Source of the DNA: a virus | Strand: one strand, 5' to 3' | IMG/VR virus record: IMGVR_UViG_3300045967_000077 | Location: 1-23,659 of that record | DNA length: 23,659 nucleotides | Shown here: piece by piece, positions 7,339 through 23,659 of the stretch | Position numbering within the stretch: position 1 is the stretch's first letter | How the letters are laid out: every line of letters begins with the position of its first letter | Translations under genes and position numbers: made by a program | Notes under the pieces: generated by a model | What the model was told of the DNA's origin: nothing | The model's input: the letters and a program-made list of their open reading frames with translations, nothing else | Databases searched by the model: none

Positions 7339-8991
7339 CTACGCAGTCCGAATGAAGCTCAGGCGGTTGAGGAGCCCCTCGAATCCCGTCGACGAGGCGT
7401 TCTTCGAGTTGATGCGAACGCGCACCCGGTAGGTCTTCGTCTCCGAGACCGAGATGCCAGACGTCGTCCGCCACTGGCCCGTGTTCGCAGAGGCGTGGTA
7501 GAACTCCGCGTTCGACACGACCTCCGAGCCGTCAAGCAGCACGTCGATCTGGCCGGCGAACGATCGCTGATGCGCGACGACGACACACTTGTACGTCCCG
7601 GCGGCGAACGGCACATCCCATTCCACCCAGTAGCCGTCGTAGCCCGGCAAGTGCTGGTCGTCGGTCTTCAGCGCGCACATATACAGGTGGTCGCTGTTGT
7701 AGAGGTACGTCGACCAGCCGTTGTTGTCGATCGACGGGCAGAGCGGGTCGATGGTGATCACCCAGGGCATCTCTCCGCGCATCTCCATCGCCGGGATCAT
7801 GGCCGCGTTCAGCTCTGCGACCGACACGAGGTTCCGCGCCGGCAGGTGGAGCAGGTCGGCCCAGGCGTCGGGATCCGAGCCGATGTAGATGCGCTGCATC
7901 TCCAACCGGTAGCTCGAGCTCGACCCGTTCTTCGTCGCGTTCGTGATCCTGAGGCGCGCCTTCTTCGCCACCGAGTTCGTGAACGTGATCTCCGCGCCGC
8001 GGTGGTTGTCTCCTCCAGACCCGTTGTAGAAGTCCGTCGTGCCGCGGTCGACGCCGTCCCATCTGACCGTAGCGATGCCGTGATCTGAGCCGCGGTGGCC
8101 GCAGAGGATGATCCCGACGTCACCCTGCGGCAGCACGAGATCCCACTCGGCCCACTCGTTCTGCGTGTCCCACAGTAGGTAGTGACCGAGCACGCTACCG
8201 GTGTCCGGCTGAAAGTTCAGTGCTCCCGAGTCGGCGATCTTCTCGTGCATGTCCAGGCAGGTGCGCTGGCGGAAGCAGCCGCTCATCCTGAGCGCATCCT
8301 TCATGTGGGTAGCCAGGTCGGCGGCAGAGACGTACTCGCCGTCCGTCCACGTCCTCGGCGCCGTCCAAACGACCGGAGATGTGTCCAGGTCGCTCATCTT
8401 CTGGAGATAGATGGCGAACAGGCGCACGGTGTTGCCGTCCGAGTTGATGTCCTTCTGCATGATCTCGAACCGAATCGTGAAGAGGCCTGCCGCCTCGACC
8501 ACGAAGTCGAACGGGTCGGCGAGCTGGAACACCGCGTCCGTCGGAGCGTCACCGTCGTAACAGTTGAACTCACCCACCACCTTCGTCACGCCCTCGTCCG
8601 GATCCTCGCCCCCTGAGGTGCCACCTCCTGCGGCGATCAGGGGTAGGTCGCTCGCGTCAGAGTCGATGACGGTGACCTTCAGCAGCCCGTAGTCGTCTCG
8701 CTTGGCAGTGTGGATGTTGCAGCGCCAGGTGCCGGGTGTCAGGTACTCCTTGAGATCGATGAACTCGCCCTCCGCGTCGGCGGCGAGCCCGAAGCCGTAC
8801 GGATCGTTAGGCGGTGTCGTATCGGTGACGATGTCCCAGCTGCCGCTCGTGTCGTCGCGGTGCTGCGAGGCGTCGATCCAGATGTGCCGCAGCGACTCGC
8901 CCTGGGCGAGCAGGTTGTCGCGCAGATACGTGTTCAGCGTCGCCGCCGGCACGAAGGCAGCGGTGAAGTCAGGCGGGTTCGTCCAGGCCAT
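7339..8991 (-). CDS. Minor tail / receptor-binding protein with three internal repeats
   Basis: A 550-residue protein without a signal peptide, three bases after the LamG tail protein. It is built from three diverged units (about residues 1-200, 205-375 and 380-550). Each opens with a helical hook (L-N-T-Y-L-R-D-N-L at 19-27; D-L-A-T-H-M-K-D-A-L at 225-234; E-L-N-A-A-M at 393-398). A beta-sandwich-like region follows with a W-x-E-W-D-V/L strand, a G-T-Y/W strand and a final R-L/I-x-I strand. The hook is frequent at the N terminus of actinobacteriophage minor tail proteins. Location downstream of the tape measure and just before the lysis genes fits a distal tail or adhesion role. Carbohydrate binding is possible but not shown. 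Confidence 0.75.
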   Translation of the reverse strand: MAWTNPPDFTAAFVPAATLNTYLRDNLLAQGESLRHIWIDASQHRDDTSGSWDIVTDTTPPNDPYGFGLAADAEGEFIDLKEYLTPGTWRCNIHTAKRDDYGLLKVTVIDSDASDLPLIAAGGGTSGGEDPDEGVTKVVGEFNCYDGDAPTDAVFQLADPFDFVVEAAGLFTIRFEIMQKDINSDGNTVRLFAIYLQKMSDLDTSPVVWTAPRTWTDGEYVSAADLATHMKDALRMSGCFRQRTCLDMHEKIADSGALNFQPDTGSVLGHYLLWDTQNEWAEWDLVLPQGDVGIILCGHRGSDHGIATVRWDGVDRGTTDFYNGSGGDNHRGAEITFTNSVAKKARLRITNATKNGSSSSYRLEMQRIYIGSDPDAWADLLHLPARNLVSVAELNAAMIPAMEMRGEMPWVITIDPLCPSIDNNGWSTYLYNSDHLYMCALKTDDQHLPGYDGYWVEWDVPFAAGTYKCVVVAHQRSFAGQIDVLLDGSEVVSNAEFYHASANTGQWRTTSGISVSETKTYRVRVRINSKNASSTGFEGLLNRLSFIRTA

Positions 8992-8994
8992 CGC

Positions 8995-10872
8995 TCACCA
9001 CGTCGGGAATGTGTCGGTTCCGAGAATGTCCGCGGCGGAAGCTCCCAGCACCCAGGGATCCTCGTCTCCGAACGGCGACAGGTGCCATGTCGTCTTCCAG
9101 CCACCGGGCCCGACGTCATGGGTGATGCGCTCGATGAAGGCGTCCTGCTCGATCGTCGTGCCTCCTAGCGGGCGATGCTTGAACGTGTAGCGGTTCGAGT
9201 TGTAGGCGCCGAGCAGCACCGGCCAGAGAAGGCTGGGGTACTTCTCGCCGAGGAACGTGACGCCGGTGAACCGGGTCGCCGGATCCTTGTACCGGGCGAC
9301 ATACCACTCGGCCGCGGCCTGGCACTCGTTGAAGCCGGTCAGCAGTGACTTCGTGAACGTGCGCGGCCCGTACTCGTCGACGCTCTCCTGGTCGCGGGCT
9401 TCGGCAGTGCCCGTGCCGTCGCCTGATGAAACCTGTGCCTCGTTGAAGAGGTAGGCGGTGTCGCTCGAACGCGGGAGATCGACGTAGGGCAACTCGGCAC
9501 CCTGCGTGCCGACGATGCCGCGGCTGACGCTCTCCGACTCGAAGCGGTGTCGGCGATCCTCGTAGACGACGCGCCCGTCCGAGCCGACGTAGAAGAAGCC
9601 ACCGTCAGAGTCGGCCACCGCGAGCAGATGCTCTAGGACGCGGCCGGTAGCGGCTTCGATCGCTGGCATGGTCGAGATGCCTGCATCGATGTTCCGCATC
9701 GACGCCGGGACACTGAGCAGGTCGAGGCAAGATTCGATCCGCGCGCCCGCGAGCTCGGCGTCGAACGAGGTCTCCAGCGGAAACTCGACGGCAGCGAAGG
9801 CCGCGAAGAAGTCCACGACATCGACGTCGGTGATCGCGTCCGCACCGAAGCCGGGATACGTCGGAGGCCAGCTCTCGATCCATCCGCGCAGCAGCCAGTA
9901 GAGCGAGCCGTTCCACTCCGCGCGGAAGCGAATGGCCCGCATGGGAACGACCTTCGCGCCGTACGGCCCGGTCGTGACGTCGGGGTCGAACCGCTGATCG
10001 CGATTGTTCAGCGAGGCCTCGCCCGCGCCGGGCGCCGGGCGCTGAGTCTCGTCCTGCCTGCCCGAATGCGTGAACTTCAGCCCCTCCAGGCGCAGGTACG
10101 AGGTGACGTCCTCCCAGAGCGGGTAGGGCGCGTTCCACGCCGAGTCGAAGGCGATCTCGACTTTGACGGCAGGGAAGCTCGTACGCAGGCGCGTGCCGAA
10201 GGTGCCGCTTCCGGGCCCGTAGTGCCCGAGCGCCATGTCCTCGGTCATCGGATAGGCGTAGACGGCGACCTCGTCGAGAACGCCGTCGTACCATTCGGTC
10301 GAGTCCGACTTCCGCGCGATGTTGAGCGCCGTAGCCGTGTTCGCGCAGGTGCGAACGGTCACGCTGCCCGAGACGTTCACGCCGTTGACGATCAGCCTGG
10401 CGCTAGCGGCACCGTCCTTCGTGGCGATGATGTGGTAGGTCTGCCCGACGACGAGCGTCAGGCCGGTGGAGGCCACGATGACGCCGTCACCCTGCTTCAA
10501 CAGCTCGACGGCCGTGCCGTTCGTACGGAGCTGGTAGCCGTTCGTGCCCTTCGAGATCAGCGTATGGGCGCCCGTCACCGAGTCGGGCTTTATCCAGACC
10601 TCGAGCGTGAAGAAGTCGCCCAAGTCCAGCGAGGCGTGGTCGGCAGCGGTGTAGGCCTGCGTCGAGCCGTTGAAGTCGCGGGCCTCGCCAGCCGTGATGA
10701 GGCCCGTGATGTTCGCCGGGGAGGCGACCGCAGACAGCGTGTTCGCGTTGCCGGACTCGTCCGTCGTCGGCGCGGCGTTGTCGAGTCGCCAGTAGCCGGC
10801 CGGTATGTCGTGAAGGGCGACCGATTCGTATAGCGGGTAGGCGGCGCCTTGGGCGAGAGGCCCAGAGGGCAT
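8995..10872 (-). CDS. Minor tail protein with N-terminal LamG domain
   Basis: A 625-residue protein whose ATG overlaps the tape measure stop as TAATG. Residues about 25-220 form a concanavalin/LamG-like jelly roll: G-Y-W-R-L-D near the start, F-T-L-E-V-W-I-K-P-D, I-I-A-T-K-D-G, and Y-D-G-V-L-D-E-V-A-V-Y near the end. The remaining 400 residues resemble actinophage tail-hub or minor tail proteins, with N-N-R-D-Q-R-F-D-P, V-V-P-M-R-A-I-R-F-R-A and L-L-R-G-W-I-E-S-W-P. The lectin-like domain may contact host glycans at the tail tip. Position right after the tape measure supports a baseplate or tail-tip location. Confidence 0.85.
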   Translation of the reverse strand: MPSGPLAQGAAYPLYESVALHDIPAGYWRLDNAAPTTDESGNANTLSAVASPANITGLITAGEARDFNGSTQAYTAADHASLDLGDFFTLEVWIKPDSVTGAHTLISKGTNGYQLRTNGTAVELLKQGDGVIVASTGLTLVVGQTYHIIATKDGAASARLIVNGVNVSGSVTVRTCANTATALNIARKSDSTEWYDGVLDEVAVYAYPMTEDMALGHYGPGSGTFGTRLRTSFPAVKVEIAFDSAWNAPYPLWEDVTSYLRLEGLKFTHSGRQDETQRPAPGAGEASLNNRDQRFDPDVTTGPYGAKVVPMRAIRFRAEWNGSLYWLLRGWIESWPPTYPGFGADAITDVDVVDFFAAFAAVEFPLETSFDAELAGARIESCLDLLSVPASMRNIDAGISTMPAIEAATGRVLEHLLAVADSDGGFFYVGSDGRVVYEDRRHRFESESVSRGIVGTQGAELPYVDLPRSSDTAYLFNEAQVSSGDGTGTAEARDQESVDEYGPRTFTKSLLTGFNECQAAAEWYVARYKDPATRFTGVTFLGEKYPSLLWPVLLGAYNSNRYTFKHRPLGGTTIEQDAFIERITHDVGPGGWKTTWHLSPFGDEDPWVLGASAADILGTDTFPTW

Positions 10873-18859: not shown

Positions 18860-20124
18860 GCCTTCGCTCTCGCGCGCTTCCGGGCTGTCGCTCTCCGCTG
18901 CGCGCGGTTGCCGTTCGCGTTCGGCGTGAGCGGCGGCACTTCCCGCGGCGTCCCTAGCTGCTCGATGATCGGCTCCCAGTACGTCGTGACGACGAGGTCG
19001 GCGTCGTACTGCATCGCGAACTCGACGGCTGCCTCGCGCAGCGCCGTGTCCTCACGGGCCTCGTAGGCGGCCTCCAGCGCCGCCTCGATCGACGCGATGT
19101 GAGGCATGAAGGCGAACGAGTCCTGCAAGGCGTCCCACCAGGGATCGCCACCGACGAGCCAGCCGGCCTGCGCGAGCTCGGTCATGGCCGAGTGGTCGGA
19201 TGCGATGACCGGGACGCCGCACGCCTGAGCCTCGATGATCGGCACTCCGAACCCCTCGCCCATCGATGGGTTCAGGAGCACGTCGAAGGCCGCGTACTGC
19301 GCCGCGAGGAAGTTCCGCGGCAGCCCCATCAGCACCTCGCGCTCGGAGGGGAAGCGGATGCGCTCGAGCAGTCGCCCCGGCCTCTCGTCGAGGCCGTTCA
19401 TCGCCAGCACGAGGGACTCCAGGTTCGTGCCGTCACCCGAGCGTCCAGTGGCGTCCGTGTGCGCGTAGAGCCAGGCGTCGTCGTGGCGGGCTGAGAACCG
19501 GGAGAACGCCTCGAACGCCTGAGGGAAGCACTTACGCGAGACCTGCCGATTCCAGCCCTTGTTCGCCGCCACCATGCCTACCAGGAAGGCATCTCGCGGG
19601 ATGCCCATGTCGTCGCGCACCGCGTCTCGGATCTCGGGCTGCGGCCGGAACATCTGCGTGTCGACGGCGTGCGGCGCGTACAGCGGCCCGAGCTTCAGGC
19701 GCTCCATCCAGTCGCGCCCGAACTGCGACATGGCGATCGGCTGAACCTTCTCGCTCTTCAGAACAGCCCCGACGAGCGGCGGAACTGGGTAGTGGTCGAC
19801 AGGTGCCCAAATCGCCATGCGGAAGTCGTCGGGCCACGCCTTCGGCTTCATCGGCCAGGCATCGAGCAGCGCCAGGACGACGTCGGCCCCGAAGTGCTCT
19901 GCGTAGTAGGCGACGGAGTTGTTGCCCTGGTCTCCGTGTGCCGGGTAGACGACGAACTGCTGGCCGTCCGGTGAAGACCAGGGGACGATCGTGCCCTGGA
20001 TGCCGTAGTTGGCCGCGATCGCGACCTCATGTCCGAGCGCCTTGAGCCGCGGTGCCAGCAGCGCGATCTGTTCCCCGTAACCCGATGGTGCCCACGGCGC
20101 GTTGCCGAGCAGGAGCACCTTCAC
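18856..20124 (-). CDS. GT4-type glycosyltransferase
   Basis: A 422-residue GT-B fold protein. The N-terminal domain starts M-K-V-L-L-L-G-N-A-P-W-A-P-S-G-Y-G-E-Q, with the G-Y-G segment that contacts the donor. The C-terminal domain has N-P-S-M-G-E-G-F-G-V-P-I-I-E-A-Q (285-300), where E290 and E298 form the E-x7-E motif of retaining family 4 enzymes. The last 30 residues are basic (R-A-Q-R-R-A-T-A-R-K-R-A-R-A). GTG 20124 overlaps the tail-terminator stop as GTGA, which physically joins the carbohydrate cassette to the structural genes. Confidence 0.9.
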   Translation of the reverse strand: MKVLLLGNAPWAPSGYGEQIALLAPRLKALGHEVAIAANYGIQGTIVPWSSPDGQQFVVYPAHGDQGNNSVAYYAEHFGADVVLALLDAWPMKPKAWPDDFRMAIWAPVDHYPVPPLVGAVLKSEKVQPIAMSQFGRDWMERLKLGPLYAPHAVDTQMFRPQPEIRDAVRDDMGIPRDAFLVGMVAANKGWNRQVSRKCFPQAFEAFSRFSARHDDAWLYAHTDATGRSGDGTNLESLVLAMNGLDERPGRLLERIRFPSEREVLMGLPRNFLAAQYAAFDVLLNPSMGEGFGVPIIEAQACGVPVIASDHSAMTELAQAGWLVGGDPWWDALQDSFAFMPHIASIEAALEAAYEAREDTALREAAVEFAMQYDADLVVTTYWEPIIEQLGTPREVPPLTPNANGNRAQRRATARKRARAKA

Positions 20125-20564
20125 CGGATCACCTGCACAGTCCAGGTGCAGCCGAGCAGGTTCCCGTCGCCGCCCGTGTCCTGAAACACGCCGAAGGCCG
20201 AGGGCCCCTCTCGGATGTTCACCTTGTCTACGGCACCGCCGAGGGTCTTGTCGGAGAGAATCGCCTGAGCCATCGACGTCGAGGCCTCGGGATCCATCAT
20301 CGAGAGCAGGAGGTCTTGGCCAGATTCGTTGTCAGCGGTGTGGACACGAGCTCGGACGGTGAGGTAGACGATGTTGTTTCCCGGCCCCATCGCCAGCGGC
20401 TCCTGAAACGGGTCGGCGGGGTAGATATCCACCGCGGGCGGCGAAGGACTCGGCACCATGCGACCGTCCACCTGGAGATCGGGGATCGGCACGTTCGCGG
20501 TGCCGCAGAGCTCTTCGTGGATCTGCTCCGCAAGCGCGTCCATGATCGCCGCCACTGTTGCCAC
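20121..20564 (-). CDS. Tail terminator-like protein
   Basis: A 147-residue protein from GTG 20564, overlapping the connector stop by one base (TAGTG). It has an N-terminal helix (I-M-D-A-L-A-E-Q-I-H-E-E-L), a central beta strand pair (I-V-Y-L-T-V-R-A-R-V), a helix containing D-L-L-L-S-M-M-D and a beta C terminus (C-T-W-T-V-Q-V-I). This order resembles gpU-like tail terminator proteins of siphophages. Position after the connector supports it. The assignment is by architecture rather than a strong motif. Confidence 0.6.
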   Translation of the reverse strand: MATVAAIMDALAEQIHEELCGTANVPIPDLQVDGRMVPSPSPPAVDIYPADPFQEPLAMGPGNNIVYLTVRARVHTADNESGQDLLLSMMDPEASTSMAQAILSDKTLGGAVDKVNIREGPSAFGVFQDTGGDGNLLGCTWTVQVIR

Positions 20565-21193
20565 TATGCGATGCCCCAGCTGGCCTTGAGCGGCGCGAGC
20601 TTGTGCGCGTGGCGATCCCAGGAATCGCGGGCGGTGTACGTCGCGCCTGTGTCGCCGACGCCGATGATGCCGAAGGGCGACTGCTGCTGCTGCCAGTGCT
20701 CGACGGCGCGCTCGAGGTTGACCTCGCGTGCCAGCGCTGGCGCGTTCGAGTAGGGCAGCGTGTCGCCGTTCACGTCCACGGTGCCGATCTCAGAGTCGAT
20801 CTCCTCGGCTGCGGACTTCAGAACTCGCATCAGCGAGGCGTGGCGCTGCGTCACGTTCACGCGCAAGAGCTGCGCGAGCTCGGAGGCCGAGGCATACACC
20901 GGCCGGTCGTCGGCCACGTTCTGCATCGGGAACGTCGGTAGCCCCGTGTCGCCCTGGGCGTCCCTGAAGACGAGCCGGTACCACAGACCGCTCGCCGTGC
21001 CGGCGTTGTCGACGGTGAAGTCACGGTAGGCCGGATTGGCCGGATCGGAATCGACGGGCGAGAGGCTGATCGTGCCGAGATCCGTCCACGGGCCCGCCGA
21101 AGCCGTGCCTTCCTGAAACAGCGCGTTCGTCCACGGCTGGCTGTCGTAGCGGGGAGATGGTCTGACGTCCTCTACGCTGACAACTTGACCCAT
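20564..21193 (-). CDS. Head-tail connector/adaptor-like protein
   Basis: A 209-residue protein from ATG 21193. The N-terminal half is beta-rich, fibronectin-like (W-T-D-L-G-T-I-S-L-S-P, G-L-W-Y-R-L-V-F-R-D), which is uncommon for this class. The C-terminal half contains S-A-S-E-L-A-Q-L-L-R-V, then S-L-M-R-V-L-K-S-A-A-E-E-I-D-S-E-I and R-A-V-E-H-W, the helical pattern of gp6/gp15-type connectors that form a ring under the portal. A fused accessory domain on a connector is thus possible. It overlaps the HNH stop by 22 bases. Confidence 0.65.
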   Translation of the reverse strand: MGQVVSVEDVRPSPRYDSQPWTNALFQEGTASAGPWTDLGTISLSPVDSDPANPAYRDFTVDNAGTASGLWYRLVFRDAQGDTGLPTFPMQNVADDRPVYASASELAQLLRVNVTQRHASLMRVLKSAAEEIDSEIGTVDVNGDTLPYSNAPALAREVNLERAVEHWQQQQSPFGIIGVGDTGATYTARDSWDRHAHKLAPLKASWGIA

Positions 21194-21687
21194 GACGCCG
21201 CCTTTCGCCAGTTGCAGAGAGGATGAGCGACCTGGACGTTCTGGTACGAGTGCTCGCCGCCGCGAGCAAGCGGCACGATGTGGTCTAGGTGCCAGTCATT
21301 CGGCTCGGCTGGCTCACCGCAAAGTTGGCAGATGCCCTCGTCTCGTTCCCAGACGACCGCTGGCGCAACGTGCTCAACATAGGCCGCTCGCTGTCTCGCC
21401 CGACGCTTTGCCATCGTTGCCCGCCGCTCGGCCCGCACCTCTTCAGGATTCTTCGCCAACGCGCGCTGGTACCAGCCGCGTTGCATCTCGCGAACGTGTG
21501 CGTGGTTCTCGCGATACCACAGCCCCGCGTATTGAGGGTTCTTGTCCCGCCACCGCTTCCTGATGGCGCGAGCCTTCTCTCGATTACGCTCAGCCCAGGC
21601 CTGATTACGAGCAAGTATCCGTTCGCGATTCGCTAGGTAATACTCGCGTCCGTGCCGACGCTTCTGTTCTGGATCCGCGTACGGCAT
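21172..21687 (-). CDS. HNH homing-type endonuclease
   Basis: A 171-residue protein from ATG 21687 with a strong GAGGAGGTG Shine-Dalgarno. Residues 1-105 are highly basic and helical, with repeated R/K-rich segments for DNA binding. The HNH domain is C-terminal: C-Q-L-C-G (120-124), W-H-L-D-H-I-V-P-L (132-140), Q-N-V-Q-V-A-H-P-L-C-N (149-159), with Cys pairs at 120/123 and 158 for zinc. It is a free-standing gene between the repeat protein and the connector, so it is likely a mobile element rather than the packaging-associated HNH that sits near terminase genes. Confidence 0.9.
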   Translation of the reverse strand: MPYADPEQKRRHGREYYLANRERILARNQAWAERNREKARAIRKRWRDKNPQYAGLWYRENHAHVREMQRGWYQRALAKNPEEVRAERRATMAKRRARQRAAYVEHVAPAVVWERDEGICQLCGEPAEPNDWHLDHIVPLARGGEHSYQNVQVAHPLCNWRKAASWVKLSA

Positions 21688-22710
21688 CTACACCTCCTCG
21701 AGCACTTCTTCCATCTCACCGGCAACGGTGTCCGAGATCACGCCCTGCTCCATGCCGTCGATGCTTCCCTGCGTGGCGTCGGCGATGCGGCCCGAATGGA
21801 TCGCGTCGAGCATCTGAAACACGATGCCGACGAAGACGTCGGCGGCCACGGCGGTCTGTCCGGCGATGCTCGCGGCCAGATGGCGGAAGTGGCCGAAGAC
21901 CGCGGCGACGGTGCCCTGCCCGCTGATGACCACGGCGAGGTTCCTGATGTGGTGGTGGATGGCCGTCAGGGCGCCCTGCCCTGCGACCGCGACAGCCAAC
22001 ACACGCTGATTCCGCACGAAGTTCGGTACGACTGCGCCGATTCCCGCTACGGCGACTGCCACGCCTCGCGTTCGCACGGTGTTCGCCACGACGTTGCCGA
22101 CACCCGCTATGGCGACCTCGAAGCGAACCTGGCCGAGGATGGTGACGTCAGCGACCAGCGAGCCGACGCCAGAGACGACGACGTTGAGTGCCCGCACGGA
22201 GCGCACGAAGCTGCCGGTGACGGCACCGACACCCGCCACGGTTACGGCCAGCGCCCGTGTCACTCCGATGGTCGCCGTGACGCTGCCCGTACCGGCGATG
22301 GTCGCGGCGATCCCGCGCAGCACCGCGAGCGGCCCGGCGCTCACCGCTCCTACGCCTGCAATCGTCACCTGCAGGAACTTCACGCGGACGAACTCGGCGA
22401 CGAGGGCACCTGCTCCCGCGATGGTTGCGGCGATGCTCCGCGTCACGGCCAGCGGGACGCTGACGGCACCCGTACCGGCAACGCTGACAGCCAGGACACG
22501 CTGGTTGCGGACGACGCTGGGCGTCAGCGTCCCGCTCCCCGCGATCGTCGCCGCCACGATGCGCTGGTCGCGGACGAAACTGCTGGCGAGCGCGCCTAGC
22601 CCCGCGACCGTCGCGTCGAACGTGACGGTTTCGCCGGCCCTTACCCCGCCGTGCAGATAGCCCTGGAGCTCAGGCAGCTCGGGGATGAACCGTCCGGGTG
22701 CGCCTGGCAT
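21688..22710 (-). CDS. Protein with 13 tandem about 20-residue V-A-G-x-G repeats
   Basis: A 340-residue protein whose ATG overlaps the upstream stop as TAATG. After a 30-residue leader, 13 repeats of 20-22 residues run from about residue 31 to 290. Each has a hydrophobic strand (such as L-A-V-T), V/I-A/S-G-x-G (the last repeat has G-Q-T) and a second hydrophobic strand ending V-R-x-x-R. The period and alternating small/hydrophobic residues suggest a beta-rich rod or solenoid. The final 45 residues are acidic and helical (G-E-M-E-E-V-L-E-E-V). No enzyme motif or membrane segment is evident. Gene position among virion genes suggests a structural appendage. The exact family is not recognised. 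Confidence 0.75.
   Translation of the reverse strand: MPGAPGRFIPELPELQGYLHGGVRAGETVTFDATVAGLGALASSFVRDQRIVAATIAGSGTLTPSVVRNQRVLAVSVAGTGAVSVPLAVTRSIAATIAGAGALVAEFVRVKFLQVTIAGVGAVSAGPLAVLRGIAATIAGTGSVTATIGVTRALAVTVAGVGAVTGSFVRSVRALNVVVSGVGSLVADVTILGQVRFEVAIAGVGNVVANTVRTRGVAVAVAGIGAVVPNFVRNQRVLAVAVAGQGALTAIHHHIRNLAVVISGQGTVAAVFGHFRHLAASIAGQTAVAADVFVGIVFQMLDAIHSGRIADATQGSIDGMEQGVISDTVAGEMEEVLEEV
21840..22620 (-). repeat. Thirteen in-frame repeats of about 60 bp
   Basis: The DNA underlying the V-A-G-x-G repeats. The G of the A-G (or S-G) pair recurs at residues 37, 58, 79, 99, 119, 140, 160, 181, 203, 223, 244, 264 and 284. Units are clearly diverged at the base level, with some close pairs such as the two V-R-N-Q-R-V-L-A-V units. 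Confidence 0.85.
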
Positions 22711-23429
22711 TAGACGAAGTTCCTCGGATGCGTCTTACCAGCCAGCGGATCGAAGCTCGCATGGGGATAGGGGCGAATCTCGAAGCCGAGCAGCCCAACC
22801 GGGTCTGCGGCGGTGATGTTCGTGGTTCCGCCTGAGATCGTTCCGGGGTTCGCGGTCGGCGTGGCTGTCTGAAGTTGGAGACTCAGCCCAGGTGTCAGCG
22901 CCACCGTGTACTCAGCCACGGCCTCCGTCCAGTCTCCACCGGACTCGCCCGTGGCGGGAGCGGTCGCGTTGTTGTCGTTGACGGCGACGCAGCACACGGC
23001 CAGTCCTCCCCGCACCGTCGTCGTGACTGTCGGCATTCCCGGTGTCGAGGAGTTGGCAGAGATGTGGGCGAAGCCGCGAATGATCTCTTCGAGCTTGCCC
23101 GCCTCATAGCCCGAGAAGGAGTAGCACCGGCCCGAGCGCATCGTCGTCACCGCCTGCGAGCCGAGGGCGTTCGCCGCTCCGTCCTCTGAGCCAACCGCGA
23201 TCTTGCCGTACAGCCAGTGTCGGCTGATAGTCGTCTCGATGACGTGTGGCCCCGACAGCAGCGTGAATCCCGCTGGCGTGTCGGGTGTCGTTGCCGTTCC
23301 CTCGAAGTAGGCATGGACGATGAGAATGTCGTTCGGGTCAACCGTGGCCGGGCTTGCCGGGGAAACGGCCGCGCCGCTCGTCTCAGAGGACGCGCCTGCC
23401 CCCTGCGACTTGAAGGCGATGGCGGGCAT
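22710..23429 (-). CDS. Phage structural protein (beta-rich)
   Basis: A 239-residue protein from ATG 23429, overlapping the LamG protein stop as TGATG. The N-terminal A-T-V-D-P-N-D-I-L-I-V-H-A-Y-F-E-G followed by D-T-P-A-G-F-T-L-L is a recurrent pattern in phage tail and virion proteins with a beta-sandwich domain. A second strand set contains R-C-Y-S-F-S-G-Y and L-A-V-C-C-V-A-V-N-D-N. There is no signal peptide or enzyme motif. It lies between a LamG-like protein and the repeat protein, suggesting a three-gene block of virion surface proteins. Function is not further resolved. Confidence 0.7.
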   Translation of the reverse strand: MPAIAFKSQGAGASSETSGAAVSPASPATVDPNDILIVHAYFEGTATTPDTPAGFTLLSGPHVIETTISRHWLYGKIAVGSEDGAANALGSQAVTTMRSGRCYSFSGYEAGKLEEIIRGFAHISANSSTPGMPTVTTTVRGGLAVCCVAVNDNNATAPATGESGGDWTEAVAEYTVALTPGLSLQLQTATPTANPGTISGGTTNITAADPVGLLGFEIRPYPHASFDPLAGKTHPRNFV

Positions 23430-23659
23430 CAGACAATGGCTCTCAGTTGTTTGCGGAGTCGGTCGGACTGGTAGGTGACCGCGCCAGCCGTTGATACGGT
23501 GGCACCAGCGTTGTAGTGCGCTAGCACCCTGGCCGATGAGAGTGCGGTCGGGTACAGAGCGAACTCATCGTGGAAGCCTGCGGCGGTGTCTCCGACACGC
23601 ATATCCGCATCCCCGGCCAGCGTGTTGTCCACGTAGTTCTCCGTCACGTCCACGCTGTC
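23429..23659 (-). CDS. LamG-like virion protein, C-terminal fragment
   Basis: The right edge of the window cuts this gene, leaving the last 76 codons. The end reads H-D-E-F-A-L-Y-P-T-A-L-S, then V-L-A-H-Y-N-A-G, the terminal strand and helix of a concanavalin/LamG domain, as in the LamG part of the minor tail protein at 8995-10872. A valine codon (GTG) at 23653 is in frame but is unlikely to be the true start. It is probably a virion surface or adhesion protein. Confidence 0.7.
   Translation of the reverse strand, partial: DSVDVTENYVDNTLAGDADMRVGDTAAGFHDEFALYPTALSSARVLAHYNAGATVSTAGAVTYQSDRLRKQLRAIV

Follow-up and report, generated by a model that had tools for sequence, protein, structure and literature searches.

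A phage repeat protein as a candidate head or neck rod: a predicted GIN-like array with an octad tail

What might a protein built of some thirteen V-A-G-x-G repeats do among the structural genes of an uncultured phage? The gene was analysed within the window, by which we mean the whole 23.7-kb virus record that contains it (23,659 nucleotides). Features of the repeat gene and its neighbours were recorded as follows.

23429..23659 (-), LamG-like (concanavalin A-like) protein, C-terminal part; whole in record L002 (PF13385, 47.7 bits there)
22710..23429 (-), protein of 239 aa, function not assigned, adjoining the array gene; 88% identical in L014
21688..22710 (-), repeat protein gene, an open reading frame of 340 aa with 12 exact and 1 degenerate VAGxG units
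22621..22710 (-), leader of the repeat protein, aa 1-30, beginning MPGAPGRFIPELPELQGYL...; 20/30 residues identical to relative L014
21835..22635 (-), array of 13 units of 20-22 aa, aa ~26-292; a beta-rich coil in the model, GIN/DUF2807-like, basic
21691..21828 (-), C-terminal tail, aa 295-340, octads GRIADATQ-GSIDGMEQ-GVISDTVA-GEMEEVLE; motif common to relatives
21172..21687 (-), HNH endonuclease gene between the repeat gene and the connector (PF01844, 44 bits)
20564..21193 (-), head-tail connector, 209 aa (phrog_5938, E 0.0049 over aa 103-193, the C-terminal half)
20897..21193 (-), additional domain at the N-terminus of the connector, aa 1-~99; it accompanies the repeat gene
20121..20564 (-), tail terminator, the next neck gene (phrog_17840, E 1.6e-12)

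Exact [VI][AS]G.[GA] motifs were located in the window protein at residues 35, 56, 77, 97, 117, 138, 158, 179, 201, 221, 242 and 262, spaced 20-22 residues apart, and a degenerate thirteenth (IAGQT) at residue 282. Shuffled arrays contained a mean of 0.69 motifs and a maximum of 5 (5000 trials), against the 12 observed, and identity autocorrelation of the array peaked at lags of 20/21 and 41 residues. The thirteen-repeat array of regular period described by the sequence-only reading was thus confirmed. Tandem Repeats Finder reported no tandem unit of ~60 bases in the array DNA, so the units have diverged in DNA while the protein pattern was kept. Searched with tblastn against cultured phages, the repeat protein gave no match even at E 10, a search in which low-complexity filtering may hide matches, and only weak matches were returned from PHROGs and NCBIfam.

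An AlphaFold model of the window protein was built from four sequences and is of moderate confidence (mean pLDDT 61.5; 70-85 in the central array; <40 in leader and tail). The modelled chain is rich in beta structure, each unit contributing two strands and turning tightly at G-x-G. Among the Foldseek matches to this model were an antifreeze protein of beta-helical fold and three putative adhesins of the GIN type, 3pet, 3lyc and 4ygu; no match reached E<0.001 (3pet: probability 0.96 and rmsd 2.8 Å, but E 1.4). Comparison by VIA-align gave Z 19.0 and 3.6 Å over 269 residues against the beta-helical structure 3p4g, and Z 16.8 (3lyc), 14.3 (3pet) and 10.8 (4ygu) against GIN-type structures. A profile of VAGxG proteins (A4, also containing L004 and L008) matched the solved structures 3lyc (E 1.7e-7), 3jx8 (1.3e-6) and 4opw (1.5e-4); searched alone, the window protein matched only 3jx8, at E 0.051. 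Against Pfam it had no match at E<=1 and did not reach the gathering score of PF10988, whereas the related phage proteins L004 (36.3 bits) and L008 (30.6 bits) lay above the cutoff of 24.2; it is therefore called GIN-like and not a GIN member.

On this basis the array is predicted, with moderate confidence, to form a GIN-like beta-solenoid, and the regular, extended beta-rich coil that had been proposed from the sequence gained support from both the structure prediction and the structure comparisons. Like GIN/DUF2807 proteins (PF10988; 3lyc, 3jx8, 3pet, 4opw), the array has V-x-G-x-G coils of ~20-21 residues and a similar predicted fold. Unlike them, the repeat protein is longer, carries a leader and an octad tail, and by itself matches no Pfam model; the GIN/DUF2807 proteins named are bacterial (Bacteroidales), whereas the repeat protein is encoded in a phage structural block. 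One GIN/DUF2807 protein, PGN_1547, is classed as an adhesin on the strength of its mutant phenotype (PMC10949514). A structure model of a relative with another repeat type (L018) reached a pLDDT of 40, so that a shared fold across repeat types is argued for by the shared period only.

Record L002, 99% identical to the window in the overlap, extends the gene order upstream. It was read as terminase-like, portal-like, protease-like, major capsid, an 86-aa gene, further reading frames, LamG, the 239-aa gene and the repeat gene; the terminase, portal and protease names come from reading the sequences and not from a family search, and the major capsid gene matches phrog_2263. The resulting order (capsid, LamG, 239 aa, repeat, HNH, connector, tail terminator) puts the repeat gene towards head and neck, at a distance from the tail-tip genes. 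Its location in the virion gene block, as first read from the sequence, was accordingly upheld, and the accompanying suggestion of a fibre shaft was not, as far as a tail fibre is meant, the tail-tip genes lying at the opposite end of the module. The suggestion of a decoration protein survives: a beta-rich coil encoded in the structural block on the head/neck side makes a decoration or appendage role plausible. The nearest cultured capsid proteins are ~27% identical and occur in mycobacteriophages, which hints at an actinobacterial host; a genome scan for hosts found none.

The HNH gene, probably a mobile insertion at one site, separates the repeat gene from the connector in the window and in L075 and is absent from L014. 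The gap before the connector in L069 and L070 is similar in size to the HNH gene.

Relatives were found by connector scans (110 connector relatives in IMG/VR); for the repeat-protein scan, a 12-row repeat alignment was too variable and a consensus query worked. A repeat-protein gene lies immediately upstream of the connector at 40 related viral loci. At loci with the repeat gene the connector carries an extra N-terminal domain of ~100 residues, for which comparison with solved structures gave no convincing match. Short connectors have the capsid gene directly upstream in 23/24 cases (21 by a script motif; L099 and L118 by reading the protein end) and another gene in L112. At all of the 35 listed junctions the stop of the repeat gene lies some dozen bases or less from the connector match, and the two often overlap in ATGA. 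These junctions, and the joint presence of repeat gene and extra domain, fit a physical partnership with the connector; the joint presence may also be mere common ancestry. At L098 and L108 a similar non-repeat gene lies upstream of the connector in place of the repeat gene, and the L108 connector has a different N-terminal extension of ~100 residues.

We give a probability of about one half to the reading in which the repeat protein is a virion rod of two parts, a GIN-like beta-solenoid array and an octad tail seated on the head or neck, with the array exchangeable. On this reading some 13 coils of 20-21 residues would stack into the predicted solenoid, and the octad tail would hold the rod on the head or neck, most likely via the connector or its extra N-terminal domain; in relatives, translation of the repeat gene directly precedes that of the connector. 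The protein would be present in the virion, with the array facing outward and acting as a low-affinity adhesin for polymers at or close to the host. Comparison of relatives shows that the whole array is replaced by unrelated sequence while the tail motif and, nearly always, the 20-residue period are kept; such replacement would alter the targets to which the virion adheres.

Capsid, rather than connector, could be the partner of the octad tail. A decoration of the Hoc kind, with the octad tail on the capsid lattice and many copies forming short fibres over the whole head, is a possible but rather unlikely account of the protein. It is favoured by the position of the repeat gene between capsid and connector, beside LamG-type genes, and by the layout of T4 Hoc, a variable string of changing array length on a conserved C-terminal anchor (PMC10385173). 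Against it, the repeat gene is joined to the connector and not to the capsid gene, accompanies the extra connector domain, and shows no sequence relation to Hoc in Pfam or PHROGs. The likeness to Hoc is one of layout and, going by the moderate model, not of fold. Hoc is a string of Ig-like domains with an anchor that binds the capsid hexamer, whereas in the repeat protein the string is made up of 20-residue units whose types are unrelated, an octad repeat of ~40 residues is the putative anchor, and the gene is tied to the connector. Tested for an Ig-like string, the window protein had no Pfam or significant PHROG match, and its moderate model is a repetitive coil and not a row of Ig domains.

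Fibritin is a trimeric coiled coil; tested against this, the moderate model of the array shows beta strands and lacks any confidently predicted helix. Fibritin forms the collar whiskers of T4-like phages, a neck/collar fibre with modular swapping that is ancient and affects the C-terminal domain (PMC3797505). The repeat protein resembles it as a putative neck fibre with modular swapping and differs in that the body is swapped and the C-terminal motif kept.

The reading as an exchangeable rod draws on comparison of the repeat genes themselves. Best periods were obtained for 39 genes, including that of the window's own virus (L059) and near-copies (L067/L068, L069/L070); L075, with its repeat gene behind the HNH gene, is additional. 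The best period was 20 in 32 genes, 18 in 3, 22 in 3 and 23 in 1, and the period signal exceeded all 200 shuffles in each. Unit sequences include ETGSLTA..SGADVF (L012, L018), ADSVALADQL (L019, L067), GYATVGLVGAGPSAS (L020, L026), GAATQALTLGLTT (L022) and ATASGPTPAV (L025, L029). By phmmer and single-linkage clustering the units fall into at least 7 groups, a lower bound because single linkage merges some arrays alike in composition, such as that of the window with those of L014 and L080. The connector tree requires at least 18 repeat-group changes, against 24.3 when shuffled and with none of 200 shuffles as low (L011, L013 and L075, which have no measured array, were scored as their own group). 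Profile comparison detected no homology between the VAGxG profile and the repeat types of L022 and L019; L018 matched it weakly, in the tail and last units only.

The exchange is seen most clearly in L014. Its DNA identity with the window is 80% on one side, ending in the first codons of the repeat gene, and 86% on the other, beginning at the connector, with no DNA match across the array region; at the protein level the leader is kept as listed above, and 19/40 tail residues are identical. The sequence-only reading had called for repeat number to be compared among related phages, and the comparison was informative in another way, as relatives change the whole repeat sequence and not only the number. 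The same spot, repeat length and similar tail motif, combined with an often unrelated repeat sequence, suggest an exchangeable surface rod on the virion.

The tail motif in relatives is an octad, G-x-[IVLM]-x5, of which the window octads use G-x-[IVM]. Pairs of G-x-[IVLM] in the tails of the genes compared numbered 71 at a spacing of 8 (2.9 expected), 44 at 16 (2.3 expected) and 20 at 24 (2.0 expected); a few tails, such as those of L072 and L076, are poor in the motif. The tail had been described as acidic and helical. It is acidic (pI 4.05), but its 8-residue repeats showed no confident helix (pLDDT ~30). Genes consisting of the tail with no array occur in L011 (71 aa) and L013 (67 aa), and just upstream of both stand genes that, from reading their sequences, resemble a glycosyltransferase and a methyltransferase.

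The window segment 14935-20124, flanked by the tail terminator and tail tube genes, holds GT1/GT2 glycosyltransferases, a CmcI-like methyltransferase and small genes. That the repeat protein carries sugars made by this cassette is improbable. The cassette is real (Glycos_transf_1/2, Methyltransf_24) and lies inside the structural block, sugar-type genes also precede the tail-only genes of L011 and L013, and some repeat types are rich in Ser, Thr and Pro; however, the Ser+Thr content of the window array is unremarkable at 14% (relatives' arrays: median 22%, range 12-38%), and L011 and L013 have the sugar genes with no array. The idea that recurring Thr and Ser form a glycan scaffold was thus left unsupported, the glycosyltransferases not being specifically tied to the repeat protein.

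It is equally doubtful that the protein is not displayed at all and serves as an assembly factor or as an internal basic protein travelling with the DNA. The window array is strongly basic (18 R+K against 5 D+E over aa 30-290; pI 12), as such a role might have it, but the relatives' arrays span pI values of 4.1 to 12, so that charge is not conserved, nor is any single charge-based target. Repeat turnover is typical of exposed surfaces, and the turnover seen here fits one. Least probable is a functionless repeat expansion in which the tail alone matters, to which the array-less tails of L011 and L013 would lend themselves, since the units differ in DNA yet keep the protein pattern, and an array is kept by 40 of the 42 relatives whose tail gene is readable, its period almost always the same.

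Returning to the rod with exchangeable arrays, we tentatively propose, as a possibility somewhat short of even odds, that one anchoring tail and a rule of 20-residue coils could make up a socket for unrelated arrays: whole arrays would be swapped, repeat length and not sequence would be conserved, and the outcome would be a plug-in display at the neck. If true, these phages vary a surface rod by whole-array exchange, with anchor motif and repeat period preserved, akin to T4-like phages varying Hoc but with different building blocks. The locus would then offer a case in which selection on repeat length, as opposed to sequence, can be tested, and a candidate new neck appendage in uncultured phages, with a tail motif usable to find others.

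Further genes were noted alongside. Between capsid and connector, L012, L013 and L018 carry genes judged by reading to encode a GH16-type hydrolase, a GH26-type hydrolase and a beta-helix protein. In L007, a check for fusion between the 239-aa protein and the array gave no support for one. Much longer VAGxG proteins are encoded in unrelated phages (L006:6168-11156, L007:6234-8420, L008:3923-5893), one of them standing behind a glycine-rich N-terminal region. The window tail genes at 8995-10872 and 7339-8991 have LamG (PF13385) and a weak CBM6 match, which suggests that carbohydrate may be bound at the tail tip too.
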